Source: Punctularia strigosozonata HHB-11173 SS5 (taxonomy: Eukaryota; Basidiomycota; Agaricomycetes; Corticiales; Punctulariaceae). From it: a DNA stretch of 32,795 bases. Where the stretch lies: assembly GCF_000264995.1 (NCBI RefSeq), contig NW_006767456.1, positions 1,761-34,555 on the forward strand. The letters are read 5' to 3'. This document shows positions 1,884 through 19,863 of the stretch, piece by piece (position 1 is the first letter of the stretch; each line of letters starts with the position of its first letter). Below the pieces are notes generated by a model. That model worked only from the letters and a program-made list of their open reading frames with translations. It did no database searches and was not told the origin of the DNA. The translations under genes and the position numbers were made by a program.

Positions 1884-2647
1884 CTACTCTTCGTCCCCGG
1901 TGGGACGCGTTTCTCGGACGTCGGCGTTGAGCGCAACCAGCTCCCTTCCCAACTCGGCCACGCGACGTTCCAGCGCTGAGATGCGTTGCGTAGAATGCTC
2001 CTGGTGTCGCGCGCAGGCCGCTTCCATGTCGCTCACGCGGGTCCTGAGCAGTCGCAGCTCTGTCGGTACCGCCCGCGGACGATCTTCCGCCGGCGTTGGA
2101 GTGGTGCGGACGATCCGACGGATGGACTCGTTGCCGGTTCGAAGCGCGTCGGCGACGGTATGCAGGCTTTGGGCGAGGACGGTTTGGAAATAGTGACCGT
2201 GCAAGGCGATCGCTCGCTCGAACGCGTTGAAGATGTGGTGCAGCCACGCGGAGCTGTACGACATGCGGGTGGACAAGAATCGGATCCACGTCGCGCCGTC
2301 GATAACTGAGTCTGGAGGGTTTTCGTCCAAAGCCGGGAGAGGATGGAGCGGCGGCACAACGGGTCGGTGCACCGCGATGGTGTATTCGCGCCCGCTTTCT
2401 TCTTCGACACGGACACGGACCGATCTTGAGCAGAAGATGTTGCCGGTGCGGCACGGATCGCACGAAGCGGGCCCGCCGGCGGTGTACTGCGGGGAGCATT
2501 CGATGTCGAGTTCCGTACACCTTCTGCACGTCTATGGGACGGCGAAGACGGGCGTTAACGACGGATACATGGGTTACCCGCGCCGTCTAGACGTACCTCC
2601 GGAGACGCGTCGTCAATCGGAACGGTGGATTGTGGCTGACGGTTCAT
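1884..2647 (-). CDS. G2: Zn2Cys6-like cluster plus coiled coil, 232 aa
   Basis: Exon 1 (2647-2597, 17 codons) is joined over a 65-nt intron (2596-2532, GTACGT donor, TTAAC branch, ATAG acceptor, phase 0) to exon 2 (2531-1884). The cluster follows the junction at once: Cys19, 22, 29, 41, 44 and 51, with exactly the spacing seen in G1. A Pro-rich linker follows, then a helical segment containing ATWIRFL, and a C-terminal coiled coil with regular Leu/Arg heptads (about residues 185-220). The W-x2-F segment after the linker matches the (E)EW-x2-FM segment of the D proteins, so G2 is probably a diverged D-type gene in inverted orientation. Few basic residues lie between cysteines 2 and 3, unlike typical DNA-binding GAL4-type fingers. 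Function unknown. Confidence 0.75.
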
Positions 2648-3035: not shown

Positions 3036-3767
3036 CTACCAAGGGATCGTACCATCCTGCGACTTCCACATGTCGTCCAGCTCCTTAGACATGTCGGCTA
3101 GCATGAAATCGAGGGCCTGGCGGAACGGATCCTCGTCGTCCTCGTCCTCGTCGTCGTTGTCGGCGGAGAGCGCGAGTTCCGTGTCATCGCCCGAGCATTC
3201 CTGCACGACCGACATAAGTTCCTGAATCGTGGCGATATGCTGACGCGTCGCATATCGCACGTCGTCGAGTTCTCCGAGAGAAGCGCGCGTAATGCAGCGG
3301 ACCTCGGATCCTGCTCGAATGCAATTCGGGCAGGATGTCGCCAGATCGCCTTCGCAAACGAGACCCAGACGGAGGCAATTGGTGCATGCCACGGACCCCT
3401 TGCGATTCTAGGGATGATATTAAACGAATCGCGCTGCGGGACGACGGGATTGAACCCACCGAGTTGAACAGCCATGACGCGTAGCGAAGGCGCTCTTTGG
3501 ATATCCTCTGCTCGCGTCCAGAGCGGCGATGATCTTCGGATGCCCATCCGGCGGACATCACTCCCTGAATCGCAAGGTGCGTTACGAACAGGATGCGGTC
3601 CGAAGATGGTTACGTACGGTGTCAGCCCTTTTGGCGTCCCTCTTCGCATCCGGCGAAGCCGTAGCCTTCCTTTTACTACCGGTGCTGTCATTGCTCGCCG
3701 AATGAGCCATCGGGGTGGCTCCGACGCGACGGACGTTAAAGATGGATGCGGCGTTGCGGGTAGCCAT
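3036..3767 (-). CDS. B1: Zn2Cys6-like protein, module copy 1, 208 aa
   Basis: There are three exons: 3767-3618, 3564-3460 and 3407-3036. The introns are 53 and 52 nt, both phase 0, with GTACGT and GTGGGT donors. Exon 1 is basic and disordered. Exon 2 ends in the helix RYASWLFNS. Exon 3 opens NRKGSVACTNC and carries the cluster Cys93, 96, 103, 111, 114 and 123 (C-x2-C-x6-C-x7-C-x2-C-x8-C). It then has SLGELDDVRYATRQHIATI, also found in B3, and an acidic Asp/Glu run before the C-terminal helix. B2 and B3 share the same three-exon plan and junction motifs, which supports the model. It is the first gene of module copy 1, upstream of A1 on the same strand in map position but transcribed after it. 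Role unknown; zinc binding is inferred. Confidence 0.8.
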
Positions 3768-4042
3768 AGGGAATGCAGCTGCTAAGATGACGGGCAGGTT
3801 AGAGAGCCGATGTTAGACGACACTCATCGATGATCGCACACGTGCCCACCGGATCCAGGATGGCCACGTTGCAGTGGATACACGTACGTGGGCGTCCGGT
3901 CGCCGCTAACTTTGCGGTAAAAGCATATGGTATTGCCATACTCGTTGGGTTCATATACAATGTACGAGACGGAACCGCAAAGTCCGCCGCGGCGTATCTT
4001 AAATAACGAAAGGAAAATACACGGAAAGACACTGTCCGACAT

Positions 4043-5363
4043 CTAAGCGCGGCGACTCGCGCGATTGACCTTTTCGACGCCCCTGCTGAGCTCCACCAAC
4101 GTCCCGGATAAAGACACCAAGGATCCGGAAATCTTGCCGAGCAGCTGTTGGACGTCCGCGATGACCGTCGCGTTTTTCTCGAGGAGCGCGGTCTGAACAT
4201 CCGACGCGGCGCGGATATCTGACACCGTCCGTGCGAGGTCCTCGAGGGTCCTTCGGACGCCCTCGCGATCCGAAGTCGATGGAACGGACGCCTCTTGGGT
4301 CGCCCGCACGGTATCCACCAGCGTCGCGAGGCGTTCTTCGATGTCGCCGAGGGCGTTGAGGCGCGACGCGATGTGCTCGAGCTTCTGCATCGCGGCTGGG
4401 GCGATGCGGTCCACGTCGGGTCCGATCGGACTCTCAGCGTCTAGAAGGTCGTGGGACCGCAATGCAGCGAGTGCGGCGGCGGCAGCAGCGGCGGCGTCCG
4501 CAGCCGTAGCCGAAGACGGGCCCGTACCGGTCGCGGACTGACCCCCGGCGTTCGATCCGCGGATTGGCGCGGACGAACTACGGGAAACGCCCGTATCTCG
4601 CAGGCGAGGGTCCGGCGACAAACGGGCGGCGACGGCCGACGGATCCTCCGTCGGGTCGGAAGCTACCCTCTTGATGGCGGAAGTGGCCTTGAGGGCAGCT
4701 GTGGACGATGTCAGCGGAGCGTACCCATTCGTTCTGTCGCACTAACCTCTGGTCGATAAGTCGCGCGAGAAGGCCGGCGACGCTCCAGAACCCGTCGGTT
4801 CGGCGGGGTTGGGTCTAGGTCTTTTCGCGGGGGGCTCGGATTCGGTCGCGCTAGGAGACGGCCTCGTTGCGACGGCGGGCTTGACCGGCCGTGCGCGAGG
4901 AGGGGTGGTTCGGGACGTGGACGCGATCGGTGCCGGAACGTGGACCGCAGGGGGATCGCGACGATCCGACGCCTTCCCCTTCGTAGAGCTCGATGCGCTT
5001 GTCTGCGATGGACCTGGGGGCTTCGAAGCGTCCTTCCGAGCCGCGCGCTTTTCCGGATGCGTGCGGGGGGCGGCGGGTTCCTTGTCGTTGACCGGGAGCC
5101 TTAGGTCAAGCTCGAATCCAAGAGAACCGCGGTGCTCACCATGCTCATATTCCTAACGCCATCTCCCACCTCCGTGATGCCTGCGTCCATGTCGTGATCA
5201 TCCTAAGCCGGACCCGTGGGTACTACAGAGCGAGAGGATCGAGGAAAAGACTCACTGCCGCGCCCAACCCGGCGCGAGCCAAATATTCGGCCAAGAGCGC
5301 AGCGTACTGGGCATCTGTCATTTCTTCCGCGGTAGCGGGGAGTTCGGGTAGCGTGCGGTCCAT
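4043..5363 (-). CDS. A1: disordered/coiled-coil protein, module copy 1, 386 aa
   Basis: Five exons can be read: 5363-5256, 5202-5140, 5080-4747 and 4698-4043, where the first two are short and the last two hold most of the protein, giving four exons and three introns of 53, 59 and 48 nt. Phases agree at each join. The N-terminus has EEMTDAQYAALLAE, matching AEMTDEQYHALLAE in A3. Exon 2 is acidic. Exon 3 is a Pro/Ser/Lys-rich disordered linker. Exon 4 has an alanine run and then about 150 residues of heptad-patterned helix (IEERLATLVDTV, LEDLARTVSDI, VSLSGTLVEL), a predicted coiled coil. There is no zinc cluster. It is divergent from C1 across 270 bp. It is likely an oligomerising partner, by inference only. 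Confidence 0.75.
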
Positions 5364-5633
5364 AGCGAAGCCGAGGTGAAGAGAGAGGCAGACAGGCATG
5401 GACTCTATGTCGGGGCGGCGTAATCGCGCACGTGACCAGACGATGGATCGATTTGCGCAAGTCCGAACATGCTAGACCCAGCGCCTGGCAAAGGGATATC
5501 AGCGACGTGAGAACTATCATTCTTAGGCGCGGACGCAAACCGCACCTTATCCGTATCTCCTCGTCTCCGAGTCCGACGCGCCACGGCGTCTATTGAGAGC
5601 GATAAAATCCGCGTTGACGACAGCGATATCGCG
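5364..5633. promoter_or_regulatory. Divergent A1/C1 promoter region
   Basis: This 270-bp gap between head-to-head A1 and C1 contains CACGTGAC at 5429-5436. The same 8-mer occurs twice in the equivalent A3/C3 gap. A bHLH-type (Cbf1-like) factor would be the usual reader of such a site; co-regulation of A and C is inferred. Confidence 0.4.
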
Positions 5634-6882
5634 ATGGACCGATTCCAACGGCTTTACGACCGGTTCCAGAACCTAGCCTTCAACAGGGCCGTAAACGACA
5701 CCAGGAAGGAGGCGATGGCGATCGGCGTCGCCCTGGATCACATTTCGCTGCATATGCGGCTACTGAACGCATCGATGCTCCCGACCACGCATCCGGAGTA
5801 CATCGGGCGTCGGATCCAAGACCCGGACCCGTCATCGCAGGTGAGCACGTCAATCCAAGGCACCGGCTTCAATCGTTGCTCGTACCACCGTATTTCGCGT
5901 CGCCTTGCCGCGGCGTCCACGTTTACACGACGGCGACATCGACTGAACACGTGACGGTTGAATGCGACGCGCCTACGTCGGTTCGTTGCGCGTCGGTCGT
6001 CTCCCCGTCCGATCTTGACTCAAGCGACGTGCATAGTCGCTAACCTCCGCTTCCGATCGATTCCGAAGGCCATGCAACCCTCCTCGCACGACAAGGCGAT
6101 CCTTCTGGAGCGGATCCGAGCTATCCGGGGCGCTCGACTCGCACAGGAAGGTCCGATGCCCACCGATGGGCGAAGAAGCACGTCCCCTCAAGGCTCGACC
6201 CCTAACACGATCGGCGAGGGGGTTCGGAGGGCCGTTCCTTGCATCGTTCGATTCGCTGACCGCCGGTGTCTAGGGCTCCGGCGCCACCGGGTCGGATCGA
6301 CCCGTGCTCACCATCAGGGTGCCAGCCCTTTCGGATCGAACTAAGGAACCGCCGAAGGTGAGTAAACGTCCGCATCCGTCCGCGGCGGCTCATCGATCGC
6401 GTCGTCAGCTTCATGCGCCCCCCTGCGATCGGTGCGCGACCGGGAACCACGAATGCGTCATGCAGGAGGCGCCGGGCTCGGCCTGCCTTCGCTGCTACTC
6501 GAAGAGGCTCGGATGCAGTAAGGGACATGGCAGGTCCGGTCAGACGAACAGAGGAAAGGCGAAGAAGCCGGCCACGTCGAAAAGCGCAAAGCCGGCCCAA
6601 TCGTCCAATCGCGATCCGTCGGCAGGCCGATCCGCGGACAGGTCAGTCGTCGAGACGCAAGCCCGCCCACCCCAAGCGCAAAACCCATACAGCTCCGCTG
6701 CTGCACGGATCCGCGGCTTGCAACGGCCGGCGCACGAGTGGAGGGACGCCGTCCGCGAGGACTGGTTCACTCGCGACGAATTTATGATCGCGGTCGTGGC
6801 GGTCGCGTTGCAAAACGTTCGGATGAAGAGCCAGATGGGCCGGATCCAAGTCCAGGAGGAGGTGGAAGCGGCCGAGCGGTGA
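5634..6882 (+). CDS. C1: Zn2Cys6-like protein, module copy 1, about 305 aa
   Basis: The proposed exons are 5634-5840, 6069-6221, 6274-6357 and 6409-6882, all phase 0. Exon 1 (starting MDRFQRLYDRF) is joined over an unusually long 228-nt intron with a GTGAGC donor, a CTAAC branch near 6039 and a GAAG acceptor. It could instead be a separate small gene, with C1 starting at the ATG at 6072 (235 aa). The cluster is Cys154, 157, 164, 174, 177 and 184 (x2-x6-x9-x2-x6), preceded by HAPP. A basic Lys/Arg linker (possible nuclear signal) follows, then the family motif NPYSSAAARI and a C-terminal helix. C3 shares the cluster spacing, QEGP in an earlier exon and the NPF motif. Intron 6222-6273 uses a non-standard GTTCGG donor. 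Function unknown. Confidence 0.65.
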
Positions 6883-7151
6883 CTTTGTAGCGCATAGACT
6901 CACGGACCCGCCGGTGGCGCCGGACGCTTATCGTTTTAGGATCGTATATACACAATGTACTTAATGCGAAAAGTATACTACCTGGGTGCGAACGAGTAAA
7001 CCGTAATACGGCTCGCGTGCGCCAAGGAAAGAACTTCAGTCCCCGTCGCCGGAGGCATACCGCGCCGTCGCGAGCGAGGCACGTGGCGCAACGTCACGTC
7101 TCGGACGCGCGGTCTCGAAGCTCTGCAACACTCATCCCTCTAACCGTCGAT

Positions 7152-8043
7152 ATGCCCTCGCACCGAACGCAAAGCTACGTCGGCGATGAAATGGTAAGCA
7201 GAACGGTTTAGGATCGCTTCGGCTTCTCGTTAACGTTCTTCAAAGTGCATCGGATGCCGCACGCACGGCGAGGAGGCGTGCCTCCGATCGACCGTCGATC
7301 CCGATGCGAAACGGCCATGCGAGGCTTGCCAAAGACGCCGGCTGACGTGCGCGAAGGACGTGCACGCCCCGGAGGTCCCTCCGGGACCGAGCGGATCGCT
7401 TCCGACGACGGCCGAAGAATGGGCCGGATTTATGGTGGAGGAGGTCGGGCGCTGGGAGGAGAGAATCGCTGAGGTGGAGGATACGTTGGAGGACGCCATT
7501 CAGAAGTCCCATCGCGCGATGGAGAAGACCATCGCATCCTCGGTGGAGGCCATGTGCAGGGACACCGCGGCCGCTCAGAAGAGGGTCAAGAAGTACGCGC
7601 TATCCAGCGCGTCGGATCTCAAGGAGATGAAGGACGCCGTCGAAAAGCTCACCTCGAGCGACGCCAGCGCCAAGGTCACCACGACAAAGGCCCTCGGGAT
7701 GCTGCACGCGCTCCACGGCACCGTCTCCAACGACGTCGTCCCGCTCGTCAATAGGCAAACGGAGACCATCAACCGGTTGGCCGCAGAGCTGGACAAGGCT
7801 ACCGCCGCGAACGCCGATCAAGATGCGAAGTTCCGGTGGATCGTCGACAAGCTCGCTACGGTCGCGTCGAGGATGAACATCGACATCGGCCGTCCTCCGG
7901 AGCCTCTGTTCCTACCCGGGGACTCCACCCCCTCGCCTCCGCACCCGCCCGCGCTGCCCACCGCCCCCATCGGTCGTCTGACGATCGGAAGCCCTCTTTT
8001 CGGGTCCGCGGACGAGCGCGACGAGCTCATGGCGGACGATTAG
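7152..8043 (+). CDS. D1: Zn2Cys6-like/coiled-coil protein, module copy 1, 279 aa
   Basis: A 14-codon exon (7152-7193) is joined over a 52-nt intron (GTAAGC donor, TTAAC branch, AAAG acceptor) to exon 2 (7246-8043). The cluster begins at the junction: Cys15, 18, 26, 39, 42 and 49 (C-x2-C-x7-C-x12-C-x2-C-x6-C), with Pro before the fourth Cys as in fungal Zn2Cys6 proteins. The family motif PTTAEEWAGFM (about residues 66-76) opens a long helical region with KKYALSSASDLKEM, shared almost unchanged with D3. A Pro-rich tail ends in DERDELMADD. It lies just downstream of C1 on the same strand and converges on F1. Structure suggests a zinc-containing coiled-coil oligomer; its function is not known. 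Confidence 0.85.
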
Positions 8044-8248
8044 AGGACAGACGTCGGACATTGTCATGTACATAGCCGACTTTAACGATGACTTTCGATG
8101 CGCCCGGGTCAAAACGAAAACTGAGTGAATTACGCTGGGCGCTATCCTCCGTACACGACCGTCGACGACTAACGTAGCGTAGAAGCGTTCCTATCGCCCT
8201 CGGATCTACGAGACCGTACGATGCAACGTCGACGCGATCCGGTAACCG

Positions 8249-8795
8249 TTAGGACCGGCGGTCTGAAGGGCGCGATGTCCCCGACGATCGATTCTTGCTG
8301 GCATCGTGCGTCGTGGAATCTTCTTCGAACGCCATCACCATGATGTCGGTAAGTTCGTTCGTACCTCGCACGATCGCCTTCAAACCGTCCGCCATCGCGA
8401 CGGCCGTCTTGTGCGAGTTATCCCGAAGGATCTTGACGGCGCCGGCTTCGAACCGGTCCAGGGCGGACATATATCTGTCGCTGACGTACTCGGTCAACAC
8501 GGCGGCCCTGATCCAACGCTCCGCATCGCTCATGCGCTCCCAACGTTCCATGGTCATTACACCGGACCCGGTGGTTTCCGCTGCAGGTTCCGAACCGACC
8601 TGTTCGGGCGAACGGGTGAACGGTGGTAACTCGCGAGGATATACGACGCTGTCTCGGAGGGCTTACCGGGTCCTCCAGCATGGCTTCCACCTCGCGTTGA
8701 GATCCCTCGAGGAACGTCGTAGGGTCGTCCACTGGAGCGTCGACGGCGTAGCGCGGCGAATGCGTGTCGGGGGACACGTGGGACGAGGTGGACAT
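8249..8795 (-). CDS. F1: small helical protein, module copy 1, 159 aa
   Basis: Exon 1 (8795-8667, 43 codons) is joined by a 67-nt phase-0 intron (8666-8600, GTAAGC to ACAG) to exon 2 (8599-8249). Exon 2 contains RWERMSDAERWIRAA and a long amphipathic helix through FEAGAVKILRDNSHKTAVAM, matching F2 over about 75 residues, followed by a basic disordered tail. There are no cysteine clusters, signal peptide or membrane segment. It is convergent with D1 (205 bp between stops). Conserved position and intron phase in F2 support it as a real gene. Function unknown. Confidence 0.75.
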
Positions 8796-8993
8796 GACGG
8801 TTTCGGTACGAGCGAGAGATCGGATCGAAGCGATCGTCTCGTTTGCCTGACGCGGCGTAGGTATCTCATCGCCACGCCGACTTATTTTAGCTTCGTGCTT
8901 TCGCGTGGCGCATACACGTCGCAGAACAAATAAAAACATTTATTCGCCGGCCTGACGCGGTCCGACGCATATTTCTAGTGCCTATGCCCGCCT

Positions 8994-9732
8994 TTACCTG
9001 CCACCGAACGCCCGCTTGTACTGCCTGTGATCCTGGTTGATCTCGGATCGAAGCGAATCCAACGCCTTGGAGAACGCGTCGGACGGATCGTCGACGATGT
9101 TCGCGAGCTCGTCCAACAAGCGGACGTGACTGTTAGCCTCGCGAGACAGCTGCTGATATTGTGACAGCTCCGGCTGCTTGACGCATGCACGAGGGCACCG
9201 GTCGCGACGGCAATATTCGCATACGTCGGCGTCGTTTGTCTTCCCGTCGCACATGTACATTTTCTTGACGCACCGCTTGCATATGGTCATCGATTTCCTG
9301 TTCTGCGAACGGGATGAGCCGCGGTTTCGCGAACACACGGCTGCGAAACGAAGACGCACCGAATGATAGAGCCACCACGCAAATGCGGCTCGTCCGCCAG
9401 GGGCCGTTTCGCGAGAATCGACCGCAACAAAGCCGGCGGTACCCTGAGACTGCAAAACGGAACGTGTCAACCTGTGCCGGTCGGAGAATAGGAACGCGTC
9501 CCACTCCTCTAATCGGGCTCGGCATCTTCGTGCGAGTCGATGCTCCGACCGCCTGCTTCTTGCTCGACCGAGCCTTACTTTGGCGTTGGGATCCCGACCT
9601 CGCCGCAAGCGAGTGCGTACGGGGCACGGGCTTGTTGTACTCTCTGGAATGACGTTCCAGGTCCTCGAGAAGCGCTAGGGCCGTATCGGGGTGCAAGGAC
9701 ATGAGCGCGGCGGACACGGTCTCCTCATCCAT
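8994..9732 (-). CDS. B2: Zn2Cys6-like protein, module copy 2, at least 208 aa
   Basis: The exons are 9732-9505, 9449-9360 and 9302-8994, with introns of 55 nt (GTGGGA donor, TTGAC branch) and 57 nt (GTGCGT), both phase 0. Exon 2 ends AAFAWWLYHS and exon 3 begins NRKSMTICKRC, matching B1. The cluster is Cys114, 117, 124, 134, 137 and 146, with an extra Cys at 142. The reading frame stays open upstream of the first ATG (to about 9804, FDPTVLARM), so an upstream exon is likely and the true start is uncertain. The inverted-repeat element at 9898-10324 sits 166 bp upstream and may have changed its promoter or first exon. A poly(A)-like AATAAATG lies about 50 bp after the stop. Confidence 0.75.
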
Positions 9733-9897
9733 CCTCGCGAGAACGGTCGGATCGAAAGAGAGGGCAGGGGGCTGGGGGAACGGGAAGATGGGGGTGACGG
9801 ACAAGAAGCATCAAGCCCGCAGCGGATGCCTCTGCGGATGCCGGGTTCTCCCGACATCGGAACATTTACCAACTGTCCGAGGCAGCACGTACCAACT

Positions 9898-10324
9898 AGG
9901 TCTGTTCAATTATGGGCTACAGAGTTTTCAGCTCGTAGCTCGTAGCTCTGTAGCTCGGCGACCCGGCCTGTCCACGTGATTATTCCGCCGGTGTGGCACC
10001 CAGTTTTGGATATTGCGCCGGAGCAGTAGACTATGCGTTCATGGCGTTTATCCTCCCATACAAGTTGTATCAGGCCTCTATACAGGTACGATAGTATTCT
10101 CAATGCCTGCTCAGGCGATACGCGCGGCATATATGCTGGAATATCTAGCAACAGAGGAATGAGGTCTCCGGCGACCGTCGGAGGCAATACCACGTGTCGA
10201 GGCTGGGTCGCCGGGCTACGGGGCTGCACACCGCCGAAATTATCACGTGGCAAGGCCGGGTGCCCGAGCTACAGAGCTACGAGCTCCGAGCTGAAAACTC
10301 TGTAGCCCAGAATTGAACAGACCT
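9898..10324. mobile_element. MITE-like inverted-repeat element (427 bp)
   Basis: The first and last roughly 100 bp are inverted copies of each other, about 90% identical, beginning AGGTCTGTTCAATT. Both arms contain internal AGCTCGTAGCTC subrepeats. A 3-bp direct repeat ACT (9895-9897 and 10325-10327) looks like a target-site duplication, a size used by PIF/Harbinger-type DNA transposons among others. The interior is about 220 bp and carries an open frame on minus (9906-10253) with no recognised domain. It is probably a non-autonomous DNA transposon, and its superfamily is not settled. Confidence 0.85.
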
Positions 10325-10452
10325 ACTGTCCAACGCAGCACGAGCGCCGGTCATCGCATGGATTGCTGTCCCGCCGAAGGGTGGTACGATGTACATACCA
10401 CGACACCGCGGGGAGAAAGCGTAACGAACAAAAGAGCGGTCGGTCGTATTCG

Positions 10453-11586
10453 TTATGTACTCGACATGGTGACCTGCAGGACTCTCCCCAAGGCACCCCA
10501 AAGCGTGGCGACGGTCTCCGATATCGTCTTGATATCTTCGGACATAGCACGCATCGCCTCCGATTGCTGTTTCAGCGTCTCCATATGCGAGGCTTGGACT
10601 CGCGTGACTTCTCGCATCTCGTCCACGATCCGGTCGAGGGTCTCAGCGGATGCGACGCGATCCGCCGCTAAGCGGCCGATGAGGTCCGTCGTCGAGGAGA
10701 GCAGTTCGCGTTGGGATTCGACCTGCTCTCGGATGCGATCGATGCCCTGAAGGCGTCGCACGATATCCGCGAAGGTGTTCTCGGACGAGGACCCTGTGTC
10801 CCGCGTTTCCTCATCGACCCCCCTGGACGGACGGCGTACCCTGCGGATGGGATTCAGGTCTGCCGATGCGGGCACGATGGAGGGCGGAGAGGCGTGCGGG
10901 ACGCACGGTGAGTCCGAGCTCCGAGGTCCGGCCACGCCAGCCGCTGGCCCGAGTCGAAACGTCCCATCCGTGCCCTGAGCGCTGGGGACAGTGGCCTCGA
11001 CGTCAGCGTATGGATCCGGTTGCGAATGTTCTAAGGTGGACGGACCTGACGGTATAGCCACGCACGGCTTCGAACGTCGGATGCGCGACGCGATCTTGTT
11101 TCGATCCGGTGGAAGATCCCTCGACGGGCGTGCCGACAGTTTCGTGTGCATCGGGTAGGACCCTTCCGGACCGAGCCGCTGTACGATCTTTGGACGTGTT
11201 TCGCCCACGCGAGGTTCGCTCGCGAAGTGCGAGCTGGTTTGGCGGTGGCGGGGACGGGGACGGATCGACTTCCATAGGCTGGTGTGGGTGAGCGTTATGC
11301 TTCGGTCGCGCGTAAGCAACATCGCGTACCACGTCCTCGCCCTGTCTACCGTGGTCGGGAACGTCCACGGCCGCTTCGCGACCGTACTGCGACGGATGAG
11401 CGGTAAGTAAGGGAAGCGAGAGATATACGCCCAGCTGCGCACCGACGAAAGCGCTATCCGCAGGCACTCGTCAAAGTACGGCTCGTTTACGAAGTCCAGG
11501 ATCCGCATGGTTAGGGACTGCATGTCAAGCGTATCGCGCGGATTCGCGACACGGCCTCGGCGGCGTGCATCGGGCTTGCGGGGCAT
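10453..11586 (-). CDS. A2: disordered/coiled-coil protein, module copy 2, about 290-311 aa
   Basis: The exons are 11586 (or 11523)-11443, 11386-11330, 11278-11066 and 10974-10453. The introns are 56, 51 and 91 nt, all phase 0, with GTGCGC, GTACGC and GTGCGT donors. Two in-frame ATGs are possible; the second (11523) gives an N-terminus closer in length to A1 and A3. The plan matches A1 and A3: a short helical exon (FVNEPYFDECLRIAL), a short acidic exon, a Pro/Ser-rich linker and a C-terminal coiled coil (about the last 110 residues, with LQGIDRIREQVESQRELL and later heptads). The N-terminal EMTD motif is not conserved, making A2 the most diverged copy. The 91-nt intron has alternative acceptors. 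Function unknown. Confidence 0.65.
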   Translation of the reverse strand: MPRKPDARRRGRVANPRDTLDMQSLTMRILDFVNEPYFDECLRIALSSVRSWAYISRFPYLPLIRRSTVAKRPWTFPTTVDRARTWYAMLLTRDRSITLTHTSLWKSIRPRPRHRQTSSHFASEPRVGETRPKIVQRLGPEGSYPMHTKLSARPSRDLPPDRNKIASRIRRSKPCVAIPSGPSTLEHSQPDPYADVEATVPSAQGTDGTFRLGPAAGVAGPRSSDSPCVPHASPPSIVPASADLNPIRRVRRPSRGVDEETRDTGSSSENTFADIVRRLQGIDRIREQVESQRELLSSTTDLIGRLAADRVASAETLDRIVDEMREVTRVQASHMETLKQQSEAMRAMSEDIKTISETVATLWGALGRVLQVTMSST

Positions 11587-11997
11587 GGAGGCGTCGGAGG
11601 CGCGTAGACAGAGCGTAAAGAGCACGGATCCGACGTGCCCCGACTTCATCCAACGTCGGATCGGATCGCGTGGAAACCTTAACACGTCGACGCACGCGAT
11701 CGTCAAGGTCGGCGAACGTACGTACGACGATCGACGGCCCATCGGATAGTCACAAATGCTCTGGATGCGACGATAAGCGACGTCGGATCCGGGCGCGGCC
11801 CCGTCCCGCACTAAAAAGGGACCATCGGACAGATCATACAACGGATACGGAAAGGTCCGTTTGCAGCGTCGCATTTTCCGCCACCGTACCCGTGGGAACA
11901 CGTTGTTTGGGAACCGACGCGCATCGTAGTGTGTCGGTTTCTTACACCCACCCGTCCGCTTACGTCGGCACGGCTAACGTCGCTCACCTCGCCGACG
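11587..11997. promoter_or_regulatory. Divergent A2/C2 promoter region
   Basis: This 411-bp head-to-head gap corresponds to the A1/C1 and A3/C3 gaps. I do not see CACGTGAC here, only an ACACGTT near 11898. The open minus frame that runs through it shows no family motifs. Confidence 0.35.
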
Positions 11998-12632
11998 ATG
12001 AAATCCCGTCGCCGCGTTCCCGATGACATTAAGTATCCTCGCATGCGTCATGTCCTGGATACGCTCGAGGCGCGACGACAGCAAGAGCAAGCCCGTCAGG
12101 CGGAGCCGACGCGGGTCGACAACGATGAAGCGGCCACGGCATCGCCCGCGCACGGTCGAGGGGTACGCATGTATCCGCGTCGCAACACTTACCAAACCGG
12201 TTGACCAGACGATGCAGCAAAGGCAACCCGAGCAGGGAGTAAACAATCGGGCTCGCGCTACCGTCGGACCTGGGGAACACAACGTACGTGACGCGAGCCA
12301 CGCGTGAACGATGGAGCTGATAGATCCCGCGCATCCCGGATGCTCAGGTGAGGGGCTCTTATGGAAACGCCGAGGGTCTCGACGACGAGGGTCCGTCCAC
12401 TTCCAGCAACCCGTACGCCGAAAGCGTCGCCTGCCTCATGAGGACGGAGGACGCGCTGAACCGGAGCTACGTCGAGACTACCAACCGCGCTTGCCAGTCT
12501 GCGGAGCTCGCCGGGGCCATGGTAGGAGCGCTGCTACAGCATCGACGGATTCGCATGAGCCTGAAAGTGCAAGCGGGCGCGAGGAAGTTTCACGACGGCA
12601 TGAAGAGGGCCCTCGAACTTCCGGACGATTAG
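11998..12632 (+). CDS. C2: C-family protein lacking the zinc cluster, 171 aa
   Basis: The exons are 11998-12162, 12218-12283 and 12348-12632. The introns are 55 nt (GTACGC, TTGAC branch) and 64 nt (GTACGT, CTGAT branch), both phase 0. The first exon is charged (Arg/Glu/Gln-rich) like the corresponding exon of C1. The last exon has SSNPYAESVACL, matching NPYSSAAARI in C1 and NPFAASASRI in C3, then a helical C-terminus with RMSLKVQAGARKFHD. The segment that holds the six cysteines in C1 and C3 is absent, with the splice junction falling where the cluster exon should start. An AATAAA occurs about 100 bp after the stop. The protein may act through the C-terminal domain alone, or this copy may be decaying even though its frame is open. 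Confidence 0.7.
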
Positions 12633-13017
12633 CGTATACGTAGATGCTCGAACTCTGCGGTTCTGGCGTATTCAATTCGCTGCTTTGAATAAACCAGGAG
12701 TTAACTAGTATTTCGTCGTCTCTTCACGCGCAATAAATACAAGTCTGAGAGTATCTACGTCATACTGATATCCATGACTCAAGCACCACTACCGGTGCAT
12801 TGCGATACCAACGTCGGAGCAGTGAGGCACTACAGGGCAGTGCACGACAACTCTCCTGTACCACGTGAACCATCGATATGGCGTCGGCTCGCGGTGAACC
12901 TCTCCCATTCCGAGCGCGAAACCGTCGTTCGCTGTATGGCCCGACGGGCACGTGATCCGATAGCACAGAACGGGCGACGAACCAACTTGACCATCTCCGC
13001 CATCGCGTCCCACCGAT
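12633..13017. other. C2-D2 intergenic region
   Basis: This 385-bp gap on the coding side of module copy 2 holds the C2 poly(A) signal (AATAAA near 12731) and the presumed D2 promoter, with CACGTGAT near 12950. Short open frames here carry no recognisable motif. Confidence 0.4.
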
Positions 13018-13768
13018 ATGGCGCCAAAGAAACAGTCTTACGCGGGTTCCGCTCGGGTACGTCACATACCTTCTCTACGCCGGCGTACGAGACTTACGAT
13101 CGTCCCGTACGCAGTGCCGGCAATGCATGATTCAGGGCGTCGCCAATTGCGTCCGGGTTACGGCGACGCCGACCGCCGACAAACCATGCGACGGCTGCGC
13201 CGTCTCCAGACGGCATTGCGCCGCCCCGTTGCCCGATCCGACGGACCTATCCGAGCACGCGCCCGCCCGTCACCCGACCACGGCCCTCGAGTGGGGCGCC
13301 TTCATGACCAGCATCCTCGGGAAATGGGAGAATAAGCTGGGAGAGATGGAGGCGAGCCTCGCTCTAGCGGCCGAAGCGAGCCAGGAGGCCATGGCGCTCG
13401 TCATCCGCAGCGCCATCGCCGACATCGTCCAGGAATCAGAGACCGCCCAGGCCACCGTCGAGAAGTACTCCGCCATGAACGCCACCGCCCTTCGGGACGC
13501 GAACGAAGCGTTCCGCAACTTGGAAACTACCGTGTCCGGGCACGCCGCCCTTTTACGAGAGCTGCGGAAGGATATGGCGTCGCAGGCGACCGCGATGGAA
13601 TTGATTCGCGCCGATCTCGACGAGCACGCGGCGTGCATCGATGCCATCGCGTCGCAGGAACGCTTCGAGTTCCTGCTTGGCGCGATCAGAAAGATCGGTC
13701 AGAGGGTCGGCGTGGAAGTTGGCACGCCTCCACCGCTCGTACCGACGTCCCAGCAGAGGTCGTATTAG
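13018..13768 (+). CDS. D2: Zn2Cys6-like/coiled-coil protein, module copy 2, 230 aa
   Basis: Exon 1 (13018-13056, 13 codons) is joined over a 58-nt intron (GTACGT to GCAG, phase 0) to exon 2 (13115-13768). The cluster starts at the junction: Cys14, 17, 25, 38, 41 and 48, with the D1 spacing x2-x7-x12-x2-x6. PTTALEWGAFM begins the helical part, and EKYSAMNATALRDANE corresponds to KKYALSSASDLKEM of D1. The tail is shorter than in D1 and D3 and lacks their acidic end. A long T run lies just after the stop (about 13841-13851). It is convergent with F2. Function unknown. Confidence 0.85.
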
Positions 13769-14010
13769 TCGCGCTTTGGATAGGGCGCGAGGTCCGAAGC
13801 TCGCGACGACGATGGGACGGATCGGTATTATCGTCGGGTCTTTTTTTTTTTTCGCCATGTATACGTACCAATGCAACGAAGCCGCGTTGCGCGATTATGG
13901 AATGAGGCGACGGCGACCGTGGCCTCGAAAGACGGCATATCGGACGTATTCGAATTGCAGGGACCACTGCTAATACATACATGAGTCCGAGCGATGCGGC
14001 GAACGGCGGT

Positions 14011-14598
14011 CTAGGCGGGATGGACGGGCGGCTGGTCCTCCTCCACGTCGTCCTCGTCTACGTCGTCGTTGATCTGTCCGACGATCGCCAGTTGGATGAC
14101 GCGGGACTGCTTCACCGACTCCTTCGCGATGCGCTCGATGCCCGAGCCGACGGTGGTTGCGGTGGTGAGCGAGTTTTCGAACATCGCCGACCTGGCGTGG
14201 TCGGTGAATTGTTCCATCTTCAGCCAGAATCGCTTCGTGGCGTCGTTGGTGATGTGAGCCGCCCGCGTCCACTGCTCCGCGGGCGTCATCGCGGCCCACT
14301 CAGACCGCTCGGAACGAGGGATCGCCCGGTCCGCCTGGCGATCCTCGGGGGCGCGTGCCGGTTCCTGCGTCGGATCGCGTGCCGCTGTAAGATCACATCC
14401 TACAAGCGTGCAGGGTTCACTCACCGCGCGCTCCGCCGAGCCTGCTCCGGACGCGAGGACGGTCGATGGCACCGACCCCGCGGCGGGTGACCGCGCGGCC
14501 GTCTCTGCGGCGTCCTTCGCTCGAAGCTCCTTCACGAGAGCGAGCAGTTCCTCCTTCGATAACGCGGGTCGAGAGGGTCCGGAGGCAGGGTTCGACAT
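14011..14598 (-). CDS. F2: small helical protein, module copy 2, 175 aa (195 if unspliced)
   Basis: It starts at the ATG at 14598. The frame is open throughout, but a 60-nt segment (14424-14365, GTGAGT donor, GCAG acceptor) fits the phase-0 intron of F1. Removing it aligns EPARAPED with EPAAETTG of F1. The C-terminal half has EWAAMTPAEQWTRAA and an amphipathic helix equivalent to F1, then an acidic Asp/Glu tail instead of F1's basic one. The N-terminal half contains LSKEELLALVKELRAK, a short coiled-coil-like helix. CACGTGAC lies upstream at 14652-14659 as part of a palindrome. Function unknown. Confidence 0.75.
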   Translation of the reverse strand: MSNPASGPSRPALSKEELLALVKELRAKDAAETAARSPAAGSVPSTVLASGAGSAERAVSEPCTLVGCDLTAARDPTQEPARAPEDRQADRAIPRSERSEWAAMTPAEQWTRAAHITNDATKRFWLKMEQFTDHARSAMFENSLTTATTVGSGIERIAKESVKQSRVIQLAIVGQINDDVDEDDVEEDQPPVHPA

Positions 14599-14905
14599 GG
14601 TGGATGGGGGGCAAGCACGGACAACATGGAGCGAATGGACCGACGGATTGTCACGTGACACGATCGTTCCGTGGCAACAAAGTCGGTCCAAATGCCGCGA
14701 CGGACATCGCGGAGCGCGGATGGAACGTCTCGACACCTGACGTCGCGGCATGAAACGTCGTTCATTGTCCATCGGAGGAACCACATGAGCGCCGTGCGGA
14801 TCTTTATTTCCATCGGTCGCACCTTTGTATTATAACGCGTCGAACCGACGAAAACCATATCGTACATCGAACCGACGGACACGTCTGCACGGCTCTGACC
14901 CACGT

Positions 14906-15596
14906 TCAATACGATCGCATGATCTGGGCCATCCGGTCCAATGCGTTTTCCCGCATTTTGTCGAGCGCGGCTCGCACCGGATCCGGGTCCATGGTCATGA
15001 CGCCGCGCTCCTGTTCGGCGTCGATGGCCTTGACGAGCTCTTCGATCATGGAGACGTGCTGCATGAGGGCGTGACGCGTATCGTCGAGCTCCCCTAGGAC
15101 GGATCGCGGGAGGCAACGGTCCTCGACCCGGTCTTCAACGCACCGCGAGCACGGGGAGTCGGGCGCAGGCTTGCCGTCGCACCGGACGCTGTTGCTCAGA
15201 CAGCGCGTGCAGATCAGCGATCCTGGACGGCTCTATTCCGAGCATCAAAGACCGGTTTACCGGGGGAAACGTAGTACGCACCTCGTTATAAATGCCCCAA
15301 ACGTGGCGCAGCGATCGGTCGTATTCGGTCTCGTCCTCGTCGCCGGTCGACGCGGCGGCTTCGACCGACGCTTGCGACTCCTGTCAGGGCCGTCGGAACT
15401 TACGAAACGCGCCGTATCTACAACGCGACGGCCTGCGCACCTGTCGATTCCTTTTCGGCATCGCGTTCGGGGCGGGCGACGCGTCGGCCTTCCGTTTCCC
15501 GTGCGCACCCTCGCCGGCGGTCGCTTCGTCCGTCGACGGGGGGACGGCCGCGCCGTGAACGGAGGTCTGCCTGCTGTCAGAGGTGGGATGTGACAT
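14906..15596 (-). CDS. B3: Zn2Cys6-like protein, module copy 3, 193 aa
   Basis: The exons are 15596-15441, 15380-15282 and 15232-14906. The introns are 60 nt (GTGCGC) and 49 nt (GTGCGT to ATAG), both phase 0. Exon 1 is disordered with KRKAD and MPKRNRQ basic patches (possible nuclear signal). Exon 2 is acidic and ends RHVWGIYNE. Exon 3 begins SRPGSLICTRC. The cluster is Cys93, 96, 103, 113, 116 and 125 (x2-x6-x9-x2-x8). LGELDDTRHALMQHVSMI follows, closely matching B1, and then a helical C-terminus. The shared exon plan and motifs with B1 and B2 make the model firm, though the function is unknown. Confidence 0.85.
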
Positions 15597-15818
15597 GGCG
15601 TTGCGAGGGCGACGCATGCGAGCGTGCTGGCGGCAGTCGAAGGCAAAGGCAAAGATGCGTACGGGCTTCGCGTAGAGGAGCTCCGGGTGGTGCCGTCGCG
15701 TCGGACGCTGCCGTGGAGATTGCACTGCCACCACATGGTACATATTGAAAAGACGATACGTAGTTGTATAATACACGACGACGCGACGCCGTTCCACGGC
15801 CAGAGCGAAAGGATCGGA

Positions 15819-17239
15819 TCACGACCAGTTCCTGCTATTGATCGCGGCACCCAACCGAAGCAGGACGCTGAGAAGTCCCTCGGCCTCGTTATGTACCTGA
15901 GCGAGCGACACCTGGTTCAGTCTGAGAGCATCGCCCTGCTCGGCCTGCGCGCGGCGGGTCTCCGCAATCTGCTGCTGGACCTCGGTCACCTTGCTCAGGA
16001 GCTCCTCGCGATCGCCCTCGGCCTGCATTCGGAGCTCTTGGGCCGCGCGTACGTTGAGCTCGAGCGTCCTCACGTCCCTCGCGATGTCGTCGACCGCGTC
16101 GAGTCGCCTGGCTATCGCGTCCAACCTTTGGGACCACGATCGGTCGAGGTCCAAGAGTGGGCGCGTGGCCAACGACGGATCGGCGCCGGATCCGCGATGC
16201 ACGGCGGGATCCGCATCCCGGCTCCGTTCGCGCTGACCAGGAGATGCCGCCGAGGAGCTCGCCGCTGCCAGAGCCTCTGCCGAAGCGCGAGCTGGGGCGA
16301 TGTTACGTCTCGTCGCTCCGTCGATGCGAGCGGCGGACGGGTTCGCAGGCTGGACGGGTCGCCCTCTATCTGTCGTGGGGATGGTCGACGCGGGTCGTAG
16401 CGCTTGGACGGGTCGGAGGGGAGGCGGGTTGGTGCCTATGACCATGCCGGCGGACGCGGGTTGGCGAGACGTCGACGCGTTGCCAGACCCTCGAACGGCC
16501 GGCGTCAGATCCACGACCGGCCCGTCATCGGGTGTACGCGCGGTGTCGACGGCTGGGCTCCGGCTCGCCGACGCGGAATGGGCGGTGCGGATCGGGACCA
16601 TCGTCGCCGGATCGTACACGGTCTGCGGATGCGCCGCGAAGGCCGGCACGGAAGCCGCTTGCGAGGCGACGTCCGACGTCCCCTGCTTCTTCTTCTTCTT
16701 CTTCGTGTCGGGCGCGGGCGAATTCGACGCGTCGCTACCCTTCCCCGAGGCTTCGGTCTCCCCGGATCTCCCCCGTTGACGGGCGGATCTTCTGACCGGT
16801 GCGGTGATCCTGACCGACGAGTCGCGTCGTTCTGATGTCCTCTGCGGTGCGGCTCGTGCTTGGCGAGAGGGTTCCGCCCGGGATCGAAGGGTCCGAGAGG
16901 TGGCCGGCTGCTGGGCGCTGGACTCCGGTTCGCCCTGATGAAAGGGCGTTCGTACCGGGGCGAACAGACGGTACGTCGGAGGACGCTCACCATGACCACG
17001 TCCTCTACCAGTTGGTCCACCTCCTCCTCGCTCGTGGCGTCGACCGACGCGGAGTCGCTCTGCTGTTCGGCACGGGAGGTCAACGGTGGCCCGTCGAACC
17101 ACAATCCGACGACACTCACCGAGATGGATTCGATCGGGACCGCGCCTTCCTGTCCCTGGAGCTCCGCCAACAAAGCGTGGTACTGCTCGTCGGTCATCTC
17201 GGCGGCGCTAGCGGGGAGCGGAATGACGTCTTTCGGCAT
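15819..17239 (-). CDS. A3: disordered/coiled-coil protein, module copy 3, 435 aa
   Basis: The exons are 17239-17120, 17062-16991 and 16934-15819. The introns are 57 and 56 nt (GTGAGT and GTGAGC donors, phase 0). Exon 1 carries AEMTDEQYHALLAE. Exon 2 is acidic (TSEEEVDQLVEDV). Exon 3 starts with about 220 disordered residues rich in Arg, Ser, Pro and Ala, including a run of six Lys (possible nuclear signal), and ends in about 140 residues of strong heptad pattern (RLDAIARRLDAVDDIARDV, LSKVTEVQQQIAETRRAQ). This is the same order of parts as A1. It is divergent from C3 over 286 bp. It is probably an oligomeric scaffold, by inference. It is the longest A copy. Confidence 0.85.
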
Positions 17240-17525
17240 GTCGGACGGTGAGCGGAAGAGCGAAGGGAGACGAAGCGCGACTCGGGGACTCGCAAACGAC
17301 CGCACGTGACCGTCCGCCCCGTTCGAGGGCGAGCCGCTGAAGTCCGACGCGGCATCCGCGGATCCGACCGACCCTTTCCACCCACGCGTCCGTACGCACG
17401 TGACGAAGGTGCCGTGGGCCTCAAGACTGAGTGAAAGCTGCGTGTCGTGCATCTACACTGTCCTCTCTCTCACGAGCCTTCCTAGCCCCACCGAATCGCA
17501 ACATCCTCGATCCGACGACACCGCG
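17240..17525. promoter_or_regulatory. Divergent A3/C3 promoter region
   Basis: This 286-bp gap contains two CACGTGAC sites (17303-17310 and 17397-17404) and a CT-rich stretch near 17460 before the C3 ATG. The A1/C1 gap shares the site, so both gene pairs may answer to one factor. Confidence 0.45.
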
Positions 17526-18782
17526 ATGCCGATAAGCGTTCAACACAAGCAGCAGCTGCTTTCGACAGCACGGTCCGCGCGCGAGCCCCTCCCGGACTCG
17601 CGAGAAGACTATGCCGAGGACGCGGTCGAAGATCGTCCGGAGTCGGACGAAGGATCCGACGGCGAGAGCGAGTACGACTCCTGGCAAAGCGACGATCCGG
17701 GCGACTCGGAAGACTACGTGGAGAGAAAGGTGCGCATCGCGCGCGTGCCGTTACGGAACCGCGCTGATGTCTCACAGGGCTCGCGACGTTCGCGCCTGAA
17801 ATCGGTAGGCAATGTTCCGGCTTTACTCGCGTCTCTCACCTGGCATGCAGAAGGCGAAACGCACGGATCGTCGCGCGAAGATGAAGGATAATGCGGACGC
17901 TGTCGCGGTGAGTGCTCTAAACGTGCCGCGTCGTCTCCGGAGCTTAACCCGATGCTCTAGCAATCCGAGCACCGTCCTCAGGAGGGCCCGCGACCCAGCG
18001 GTGCGCTGCCGCCTCCATCTGGCGGACCGGTACGTCGAACCTCCATCTTCGCTTCGTCGGGTGCGGGTCGCTAATCATATCAGAGGGTTCACTCGCCGCC
18101 GTGCCGTCGGTGCAGGAAGCACGGGTTGGACTGCGAGATGCAGGAAGCGCTTGGTGCGGCGTGCGCGCCGTGCTACGAGGGCAAGGTCCGCTGCGAGAAA
18201 GGGGCCGGAAGGACCGGGAGGCGCAGGGGCGTCAACCTGAAGAAGGGCCGCAAGCCGGCCAGGATGCTGCCGTCGCGTTCGGCGGGCCCGTCGCGAGCGT
18301 CGCCCGACGATCCGTCGGACAGCGACGTTCGGATCGTCTCGCCACCGCCGTCGGACAGCGACGTGCAAATCATCTCGCCGCCCCCCTCGCCTCGCACGCA
18401 GGAGCGCTTCAAGACGAAGCGAGGAGATGCAACGATCCGTCGCGAGGCCCCGGCGACCGGTTCTCACCCGGAACGGCGCGGTCCGGTCGAGGTCCGCGAC
18501 GGCGACGAGGACCCAAACGACCCGAACGACCTTCGCCTGGACGACATGCAGCTCGGACCGCCGCCGGTCGACTACAACCCGTTCGCGGCCTCCGCCAGCA
18601 GGATCCTCGCGACCGCCGTACGCGCGCGTGAACCCGCCGACCAAATCCGCGAGCGCGAGGCGCACAGCCTGGGGCTGCTGGCCGCGTTCACCGCCGTCTC
18701 CTTGGACAACATTCGGCTTTCGGCGCGGTTGGACAAGCTCAACGCGCAGCGCGTCGCCGACAAGTACGCGACCCCGCTGTAG
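17526..18782 (+). CDS. C3: Zn2Cys6-like protein, module copy 3, 351 aa
   Basis: The exons are 17526-17729, 17778-17804, 17851-17907, 17961-18029 and 18084-18782. The introns are 48, 46, 53 and 54 nt, all phase 0. The first is a multiple of three and might be retained. Exon 1 is acidic and disordered. The third exon is basic (KAKRTDRRAK). QEGPRPSG echoes QEGPMPTDG in C1. The cluster is Cys126, 129, 136, 146, 149 and 156 (x2-x6-x9-x2-x6), preceded by HSPP and followed by a Lys/Arg-rich stretch. Next come a repeated SDSDV motif with SPPP and the family motif NPFAASASRI, with a C-terminal helix (LLAAFTAVSLDNIRL). The basic flank makes nucleic-acid binding more plausible here than in B or D. It is the most complete C copy. 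Confidence 0.8.
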
Positions 18783-19009
18783 CTCTATCTATTTCCGTCG
18801 GAATCGTATGTAATATAATGGAGCGTTTGCGATGCCACCCGACGAACCGGCTCAGACGACAGCGTGTATACACGTCTCCGACTCGAGGGATCCTTGCCCC
18901 GAACCGGTTCCGGCGGAAGTTCCCAAAAGCGAGCACGTGACGGTTCGATTCGTATCGCCGGTGACCGCCGCCGATTGAGTTCGCCCGCTTCCGCATCTTC
19001 ATCCGCACC

Positions 19010-19863
19010 ATGAACCAGAAATTCTACTCCCTCGACGAACGCGTGAGTCCCACGTCGGATATCGCTCGGATTGCGCTGACAATCCGCACCTATCGCAGTG
19101 CATGGGATGCGTTATTCATCGGCAGTCGCTATGTGTCCGGTTCACCGCGAAACCGGACGAGAACAGGCCGTGCCGTAGCTGCATGGGGCACGACATGATC
19201 TGCGTCCCCTCCCGGCCCACCCGCGTCCCTACCACCGCCGAGGAGTGGGCGGAATTCATGGCGGACCAGGTCGCGATCTGGGGCAACCGGTTGGATGCGA
19301 TGGGCGAGGAGTTGGAGAGGAGCGTGGAGAGGACGCACTCTCGGATGGCTGCGACCATCGGTGAGTCGGTCGTCGCGATGACCGAGGAGTCCGCCCGCGC
19401 CCAGCTTCATGTGAAGAAGTACGCGCTGTCGAGCGCGTCGGAGATCAAGGACATGAAGAACCAGATGCGCGAGCTGGTCGTCGCCGGCGACAAGGACGGC
19501 TCGGTCGTCGAAAAGGCCTGCCGCATGGTCGAAGAGTTCGACGACAAGCTCCGAGCCATCGTCCCGATGGTGAACAAGCAGTCCGAGGCCGTCTCGAACC
19601 TTTGCGAAGACGTGGAGGCGACGACGCGAGCCCTCGACCGGCGCATCACCTTCTACGTCGATAAGCTTCGCGAGGTGGCCCGGAGGGTCCAGGTCGACTT
19701 TAGCGACCCGCCGCCGGTGTTCGGTACCGACCCCAACGATCCGTCGCACTCGCCGATCCGCCCGGTGGCCAGGGCGGACGACATCGCGGCCCCGGAGCCC
19801 CACAGCCCCCTAGTCGACGCCGAGGGATCCGACGAAGGGGTCGGGGCTATGGAGGAGAACTGA
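19010..19863 (+). CDS. D3: Zn2Cys6-like/coiled-coil protein, module copy 3, 265 aa
   Basis: Exon 1 (19010-19042, 11 codons) is joined over a 56-nt intron (GTGAGT, CTGAC branch, GCAG) to exon 2 (19099-19863). The cluster is at the junction: Cys12, 15, 23, 36, 39 and 46. PTTAEEWAEFM opens a helical region of about 150 residues, including KKYALSSASEIKDM and a later segment VDKLREVARRVQVD parallel to VDKLATVASRMNID in D1. The tail is acidic. D1 and D3 are closer to each other than to D2. CACGTGAC lies 69 bp upstream of the start (18934-18941). It converges on the large helicase gene, not on an F gene. Function unknown. Confidence 0.85.

Follow-up and report, generated by a model that had tools for sequence, protein, structure and literature searches.

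The window, which is the whole 32,795-nucleotide stretch of Punctularia strigosozonata DNA that was analysed, contains three consecutive blocks of small genes for which 14 spliced gene models were built. The models reproduce the layout proposed in a sequence-only reading of the same DNA, B(-) A(-) C(+) D(+) F(-) twice and then B-A-C-D, where the letters denote gene families, and the block limits of 3036-8795, 8994-14598 and 14906-19863 hold in their outer coordinates, order and strands. The locus is subtelomeric, with telomere repeats on one side and ORFs matching OrsD and helicase domains on the opposite side (Pfam E values of 4.2e-9 for OrsD, 1e-10 for DEAD and 3.3e-8 for Helicase_C). This setting had been overlooked in the earlier reading. 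The features are as follows.

822-1538, minus strand: G0, Zn2Cys6-type, on the telomere side, its 3' end entering the TTAGGG repeats
826-855, no strand: five perfect repeat units in a telomeric tract that points to the left end
1884-2647, minus strand: G, 232 aa, Zn2Cys6-type, on the telomere side, with an intron one residue ahead of the first Cys
3036-3767, minus strand: B1, 208 aa in 3 exons, with a phase-0 intron preceding its Zn2Cys6-type cluster
4043-5363, minus strand: A1, 386 aa, no Cys, Pro/Ser/Arg-rich middle and a C-terminal coiled-coil-like stretch
5634-5840, plus strand: Cx, small open frame in the A1-C1 interval, residue pattern only
6072-6882, plus strand: C1, 235 aa, Zn2Cys6-type cluster
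7152-8043, plus strand: D1, 279 aa, cluster directly after a phase-0 intron
8249-8795, minus strand: F1, 159 aa, no Cys
8994-9732, minus strand: B2, 206 aa, Zn2Cys6-type cluster
9897-10325, no strand: inverted-repeat (MITE-like) element with 108-nt arms, 88% complementary, upstream of B2 and outside the module
10453-11586, minus strand: A2, 311 aa, placed in the A family by position, introns 1-2 and a profile match in its C-terminal part
11998-12632, plus strand: C2, 171 aa, no zinc cluster, placed weakly by position, NPYAE motif and collinear C-terminus
13018-13768, plus strand: D2, 230 aa, cluster
14011-14598, minus strand: F2, 175 aa, no Cys
14906-15596, minus strand: B3, 193 aa, six Cys, all within the cluster
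15819-17239, minus strand: A3, 435 aa, no Cys
17526-18782, plus strand: C3, 351 aa, Zn2Cys6-type cluster
19010-19863, plus strand: D3, 265 aa, cluster
20215-25747, minus strand: OrsD and DEAD/Helicase_C ORFs, telomere-linked-helicase-like, 3' of D3, read as ORFs

All 14 module genes have open frames with usable, hand-chosen splice sites. Introns are shared within families, as had been claimed, namely the single intron of D, both introns of B, the first two of A and the one preceding the cluster in C1 and C3, and sharing is also seen in F. The second B intron sits 7 residues ahead of the first Cys in B1, B2 and B3, and the intron common to C1 and C3 lies 5 or 6 residues ahead of the cluster. 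In these hand-made models 28 of the 29 introns are in phase 0, though as the splice sites were picked by hand with the paralogs in view the phases are partly set by construction. The weak sites are those of A1 intron 2 (acceptor GACAAG), C1 intron 1 (donor GTTCGG) and B2 intron 1 (donor GTGGGA). ORF blastp at E 1e-3 gave no F match besides F1-F2; since the same test also misses A2 and C2, a very diverged third F may exist.

A six-Cys Zn2Cys6-type cluster with the spacing CX2CX6-7CX7-12CX2CX6-8C is found in B, D, C1, C3, G and G0 (10 of 16 models), and for each of the ten carriers the pattern arose in none of 5000 shuffles. In the first half-cluster the D proteins have CX7C in place of CX6C. 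B3, C1, C3 and G0 contain exactly six Cys, and A1, A3, F1 and F2 contain none at all. The cluster common to B, C and D had not been noticed in the earlier reading. C3 alone exceeds the Pfam Zn_clus (PF00172) cut-off (22.5 against 21 bits, profile positions 18-35 of 39). B3, G0 and C1 fall below it, with 11.6, 10.7 and 10.4 bits, and for D1-3, B1, B2 and G there is no Zn_clus match in Pfam up to E 1. In Gal4 DNA is contacted by a lysine four positions beyond the second Cys. None of the ten clusters has a lysine there, the residue in D3 being an arginine. Because this contact residue is absent from all ten and only C3 passes the Zn_clus cut-off, Gal4-like DNA binding by these clusters is doubtful. 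Searching the PDB by phmmer with the C3 cluster segment gave no matches, and with that of B3 gave two, neither significant, one of them Leu3 (E 2.2).

In the Gal4 fold a short helix follows directly on the first Cys of each half-cluster. The AF2 models of D1 and B1, which are of modest confidence (pLDDT 66.4 and 60.5, pTM 0.36 and 0.37), have the same arrangement; in B1 the helices H94-99 and H112-117 begin just after Cys93 and Cys111, and in D1 two long helices come after the cluster. Foldseek returned no match below E 0.001 for either model, the D1 matches being helical proteins at E 0.25 and above and those of B1 starting at E 4.3. Against the PDB the D profile gave 36 matches up to E 1, mostly viral fusion-protein coiled coils (best E 0.014), and the C profile one (E 0.44). 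The other Pfam matches, to D1-D3, A1-A3, F1, G and others, all lie under the curated cut-offs and are mostly of coiled-coil type. All of them, including the best, Prominin for D1 (E 0.00071, 18.2 against 34.3 bits), were rejected and taken as helix composition. A simple scan found a bipartite nuclear-signal-like stretch in only two of 17 sequences, B3 and C3, which counts against the nuclear reading given below.

The families were recovered by a six-frame ORF blastp that was run blind, with matches inside the repeat array beyond 30400 left out. D pairs were found at E 1.8e-44, 3.1e-21 and 2.7e-17, B pairs at 2.8e-15, 7.4e-7 and 6.9e-4, and C1-C3, F1-F2 and A1-A3 at 3.9e-8, 1.1e-6 and 1.2e-5; the remaining rows were two D shadow frames and matches inside the inverted-repeat element. 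With the spliced models, 9 of the 13 within-family pairs had z scores of 9.6-56.9, a score reached by none of 150 shuffles, and four did not differ clearly from shuffles (A2-A3 1.8, A1-A2 1.8, C1-C2 -0.1 and C2-C3 0.3). A2 and C2 join their families through profile evidence only. The profile comparison, which had been proposed with the sequence-only reading, supports placing A2 in the A family (score 33.3 against 19.8 for the best of 100 shuffles); for C2, where the pairwise scores are not significant, it agrees weakly (23.6 against 21.0 for the best shuffle). Among the controls, the C1/C3 profile scores D1 at 28.2 and G at 40.6 (E 2.8e-5 for the C profile against G), both above C2 because of the cluster, which C2 is missing. 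The D profile gives A2 a score of 22.0 which, with the other controls, means that scores in the low twenties are no proof.

The picture of an old duplication with unbroken order and strong divergence is upheld, the nine measured pairs being 26-38% identical in amino acids across aligned codons, with dS of 1.03-1.62. Values of dN/dS are 0.41-0.76 (NG86). Conservation is highest at codon position 2, and pN is below pS in all nine pairs, in a test biased towards constraint as codons were paired through the protein alignment. Copies 1 and 3 are more similar to each other than either is to copy 2 in each of the four three-copy families (B, D, A and C). Some similarity also crosses families. That of D2-B3 (z 7.2), C3-G (6.4) and B3-C1 (5.7) we attribute to the common cluster and not to family membership, and that of B3-A2 (5.4), A3-G0 (4.9), D2-G0 (4.6), G-G0 (4.6) and D2-G (4.1) to helix or cluster composition. 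The idea that B, C and D are one recently split family was rejected (profile E 0.014 for B-D and 0.0072 for B-C). To judge from its residue pattern, Cx could be what is left of the C-terminal part of a C-family gene; its z scores of 1.1 against C3, 0.1 against C1 and 2.3 against C2 and its hhalign E of 0.042 are not significant and it was not accepted as an established C relative. Searches of viral contigs and of bacterial and archaeal genomes gave no relatives of D, and viral contigs none of B or C, which says nothing about fungi. Rfam gave no match.

Upstream of many of the genes lies the hexamer CACGTG, at the following sites, with distances counted to predicted ATGs.

1610-1615: G0, 71 bases before the ATG
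3839-3844: B1, 71 bases before the ATG
5429-5434: A1, 65 bases before the ATG
5948-5953: C1, 118 bases before the ATG
7080-7085: D1, 66 bases before the ATG
8775-8780: F1, inside exon 1
12949-12954: D2, 63 bases before the ATG, with a second copy at 12862-12867
14652-14657: F2, 53 bases before the ATG
17303-17308: A3, 63 bases before the ATG
17397-17402: C3, 123 bases before the ATG
18934-18939: D3, 70 bases before the ATG

The hexamer is within 150 bases of 10 of the 16 ATGs, where 0.79 would be expected, and 53-71 bases ahead in eight. It was noticed by eye before testing and the 50-75 base zone was set after the sites had been seen; eight genes with a site in this zone were reached in none of 20000 random start placements, and no other of the 64 palindromic hexamers exceeds one gene there. 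CACGTG also ranked first among hexamers upstream of at least four genes. The box is absent near A2, C2, F1 and G, with one-mismatch sites 45, 80, 96 and 106 bases upstream of A2; B3 has none within 350 bases of its ATG and for B2 the nearest is within the inserted element. As the F1 site is inside exon 1, the true start of F1 may be the later Met39. The distance from box to ATG is kept between paralogs (66, 63 and 70 in D, 65 and 63 in A1 and A3, 118 and 123 in C1 and C3). With the box masked, seven of the eight paralogous promoter pairs tested, out of 13, align no better than chance (11-93% of shuffles reach their scores) and D1-D3 is marginal (12 of 300 shuffles). This pattern suggests that the genes may be switched on together via the common box. 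PMC12403569 describes CACGTG as a target of bHLH proteins in general.

The homology, the gene order, the cluster pattern and the position of the box relative to the predicted starts can all be seen directly in the sequence. The reading we tentatively favour, at slightly below an even chance, is that a segmental triplication took place long ago and that the block concerned is co-regulated and codes for a helical zinc-cluster complex of the nucleus. Five small genes near the end of a fungal chromosome would have been duplicated twice as a unit and then have diverged strongly. The products of B, C and D would be small proteins built on the Zn2Cys6-type cluster and those of A and F their partners with no or few Cys. 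One position-fixed CACGTG box, bound by a bHLH factor or a Cbf1-like general factor, would switch on most of the genes, so that the products would appear together, join via their long helices in a nuclear complex and act on chromatin or DNA. Each of the three blocks would supply a diverged version of the complex, the second partly degraded, with C2 lacking the cluster, and the third without F. Fungal gene blocks that keep their order despite such protein divergence are usually linked by function. The position-fixed box ahead of 9 of the 14 module genes is a new argument for the earlier proposal that the products work together; the proposal itself, like the expression, nuclear location, assembly and target of the products, we infer. 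Rather unlikely, in our estimate, is the more specific case of a five-subunit nuclear complex in which zinc-cluster proteins without Gal4-like DNA reading join helical partners, the chromosome end retaining several diverged versions whose subunits evolve in step. If true, it might serve, for example, in telomere or subtelomere chromatin control or in recognition between strains.

A considerable possibility, though well short of even, is that recombination at the chromosome end passively copied five chance neighbours with unrelated roles or in decay, and that the order persists because nothing broke it. The location between telomere repeats and telomere-linked-helicase-like ORFs would fit this, as would the high dN/dS and the signs of decay (the loss of the cluster from C2, the lack of an F behind block 3, the 3' end of G0 in the telomere repeats and the possible fragment Cx). 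However, all 14 frames are open and the box stays at a constant distance from the ATG in paralogs whose promoters otherwise hardly align. The box could also, with a similar and clearly less than even likelihood, be a general core-promoter or nucleosome-clearing element, used by a Cbf1-like general factor and not specific to the block, which is compatible with either account of the block. CACGTG resembles the Cbf1 site, and very few unrelated promoters are available in the window to compare with, starts being modelled only up to 20.2 kb. Yet beyond 20.2 kb there are just four sites (20843, 25073, 25288 and 28349), of which the first three are within the helicase/OrsD ORFs, and none between 25288 and 28349, on the 5' side of those ORFs. 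It seems very improbable that the modules are carried by a mobile element, for example one driven by the neighbouring OrsD/helicase gene. The helicase ORFs do come after D3, where F3 would be expected, but divergence between the copies is too great for them to have moved recently and no terminal repeats surround any module within 1-30400, where the only inverted pair of at least 30 nt is the 9897-10325 insertion and direct repeats are limited to a 36-nt pair inside C3. As Pfam also gave no recombinase or transposase match, the earlier suggestion that the genes move together finds no support.

A literature search, judged mostly by titles, gave none pointing to such a five-gene fungal block. The locus shares its chromosome-end position and its OrsD and helicase domains with the TLH/RecQ neighbourhoods of Agaricus bisporus var. 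burnettii (PMC7473861) and with UTASa/UTASb of Ustilago maydis (PMC10532341); here the helicase ORFs, which may or may not be of the RecQ type, are about 19 kb from the TTAGGG tract. The excerpts of those two papers make no mention of zinc-cluster gene blocks. With the fungal Zn2Cys6 (Gal4-type, PF00172) regulators the proteins share the six-Cys spacing, the helices after the cluster and, in the D1 and B1 models, the short helix that follows the first Cys in both half-clusters. Unlike those regulators they are small, have no Pfam match to a fungal regulatory domain, lack the DNA-contact lysine, with only C3 over the Pfam cut-off, and are encoded in ordered gene blocks together with partners that carry no cluster. 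Should the genes prove to be co-expressed and their products to assemble, a multi-protein complex would be encoded in diversifying copies at fungal chromosome ends, and Zn2Cys6-type clusters would have a function beyond the one in classic single-chain transcription factors.

Spliced models were built for 16 genes, the 14 module genes and two further predicted genes on the telomere side of block 1, G (1884-2647, minus strand) and G0 (822-1538, minus strand). The sequence-only reading had described a module, B(-)A(-)C(+)D(+)F(-), present twice and followed by B-A-C-D, and for each of the three blocks the models agree with it in gene order, strand and outer coordinates; no F gene was found after block 3. 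In the 16 models 28 of the 29 introns are in phase 0, a count that is partly by construction as splice sites and starts were hand-picked with the paralogues in view. The similarity proposed within families was borne out in pairwise comparison for 9 of the 13 pairs (z 9.6-56.9, not equalled by any of 150 shuffles) and not for the remaining four, all involving A2 or C2 (the digit denotes the block), which are not distinct from shuffles. Matches within D, B and F, and for C1-C3 and A1-A3, were also recovered by a blind blastp search of six-frame ORFs. A profile of A1/A3 scored 33.3 against A2 (shuffle maximum 19.8) and one of C1/C3 scored 23.6 against C2 (shuffle maximum 21.0), with 0 of 100 shuffles as high in either case. 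C2 can be placed only tentatively in the C family, mainly from its position, its NPYAE motif and its collinear C-terminus.

For the nine within-family pairs measured, identity over aligned codons is 26-38%, with dN of 0.63-1.00 and dS of 1.03-1.62 (NG86), levels at which dS is high and uncertain. In each of B, D, A and C the highest score is that of copies 1 and 3, and for A and C direct comparison picks up no other pair. Taken as an unrooted comparison of three sequences, this agrees with duplication of the whole block, block 2 being an outlier that is either older or faster.

The hexamer CACGTG, first noticed by eye, lies within 150 bases of the predicted ATG in 10 of the 16 genes (0.79 expected). 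Among hexamers shared by four or more of the 16 upstream regions of 250 bases it ranks top, being present in 11 (1.29 expected), that of B2 through an inserted element:

9897-10325, upstream of B2: inverted-repeat element, arms of 108 nt that are 88% complementary

This element has TAGGTCTGTTCAAT-type ends and CACGTG in both arms, and holds the only box near B2. Eight of the 16 genes carry the box 50-75 bases before the ATG, a zone set after the sites were seen; 0 of 20000 random start placements were as high and no other palindromic hexamer of the 64 tested exceeded one gene there. The distances between box and ATG are 66, 63 and 70 bases in D1-3, 65 and 63 in A1 and A3, 71 in B1, 53 in F2 and 71 in G0, with C1 and C3 further out at 118 and 123. 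The box is absent from B3, A2, C2, F1 and G. The A1 and C1 boxes are 519 bases apart, start to start, and those of A3 and C3 94 bases; a short open frame (5634-5840, plus strand) sits in the extra spacing between the A1 and C1 boxes and may be what is left of an additional C gene.

In the best-supported reading the genes of the block are co-regulated and their products work together; the promoter sequences suggest the co-regulation. The box may alternatively be a general promoter element of the source genome. In the 12219 bases of coding sequence it occurs once against 4.1 expected, the sole copy being in exon 1 of F1, where a later start past it is possible. The leading alternative to this reading is that the block was duplicated passively in the subtelomere. 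Eight of the 13 paralogous promoter pairs were compared with the box masked; 7 aligned no better than chance and D1-D3 was marginal, its score being reached by 12 of 300 shuffles. For B1-B3, B1-B2 and F1-F2 no more than one promoter of the pair has the box. The setting is that of a chromosome end, with five perfect telomere-type repeats at 826-855 in a window of 62% G+C. The 3′ end of G0 continues directly as these TTAGGG repeats, which would fit a chromosome break within G0 that was healed by adding a telomere, and about 820 more bases with scattered CTAACCC lie outside the junction. At the other side of the blocks are:

20215-25747, minus strand: ORFs with OrsD, a long Pfam-less stretch and DEAD/Helicase_C
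30449-32395: tandem-repeat array, main periods 26-172, built around GTGGACGAGGTGGATCCATCCACC
32602-32712: 42-base repeat

The array is open on the minus strand as a frame of 648 codons. Beyond 20.2 kb, one ORF has an OrsD domain (Pfam, 4.2e-9) and a second DEAD (1e-10) and Helicase_C (3.3e-8); these and the Pfam-less stretch may be one gene, and a GTGAGT donor lies near 22365 at the frame change. A GHS...Y motif in the middle stretch may be tyrosine recombinase-like. RecQ-type helicase genes have been placed in the subtelomeres of Agaricus bisporus var. burnettii (PMC7473861) and of Ustilago maydis (PMC10532341), the latter report also mentioning an OrsD domain. Together with the shortness of the introns, this neighbourhood indicates a fungal source, likely a basidiomycete.

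The pattern CX2CX6-7CX5-12CX2CX6-8C is found in B1-3, C1, C3, D1-3, G and G0, whereas none of 5000 shuffles of any of these proteins has it; C2 has no Zn2Cys6-type cluster. In all 10 cluster genes a phase 0 intron lies 0-7 residues ahead of the first cysteine. The cysteine total is exactly six in B3, C1, C3 and G0, two in A2 and C2, and zero in A1, A3, F1 and F2. Only C3 exceeds Pfam's curated threshold for Zn_clus, through a match to profile positions 18-35 of 39. AlphaFold models of D1 (pLDDT 66.4) and B1 (pLDDT 60.5) have a short helix directly past the first cysteine of each half-cluster, with long helices after these; no library structure matched either model at E < 0.001. In Gal4 a lysine four residues past the second cysteine reads the DNA. 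This lysine is found in none of the 10 clusters, D3 having an arginine there. From the cysteine pattern, the single match above threshold, the modelled helices and the missing lysine, the proteins are Zn2Cys6-like and it is doubtful that they read DNA in the manner of Gal4. A bipartite nuclear-signal-like stretch occurs in 2 of the 17 sequences scanned, B3 and C3. We infer a nuclear location, assembly and a target for the block products, which would probably form a nuclear helical complex with zinc clusters.

Searches of the open-licence literature listed no paper with a title suggesting a block of this layout. Subtelomeric gene families that diverge, and domains of the Zn2Cys6 type, are already known; what appears to be new is the ordered, triplicated block together with a box at a fixed position.
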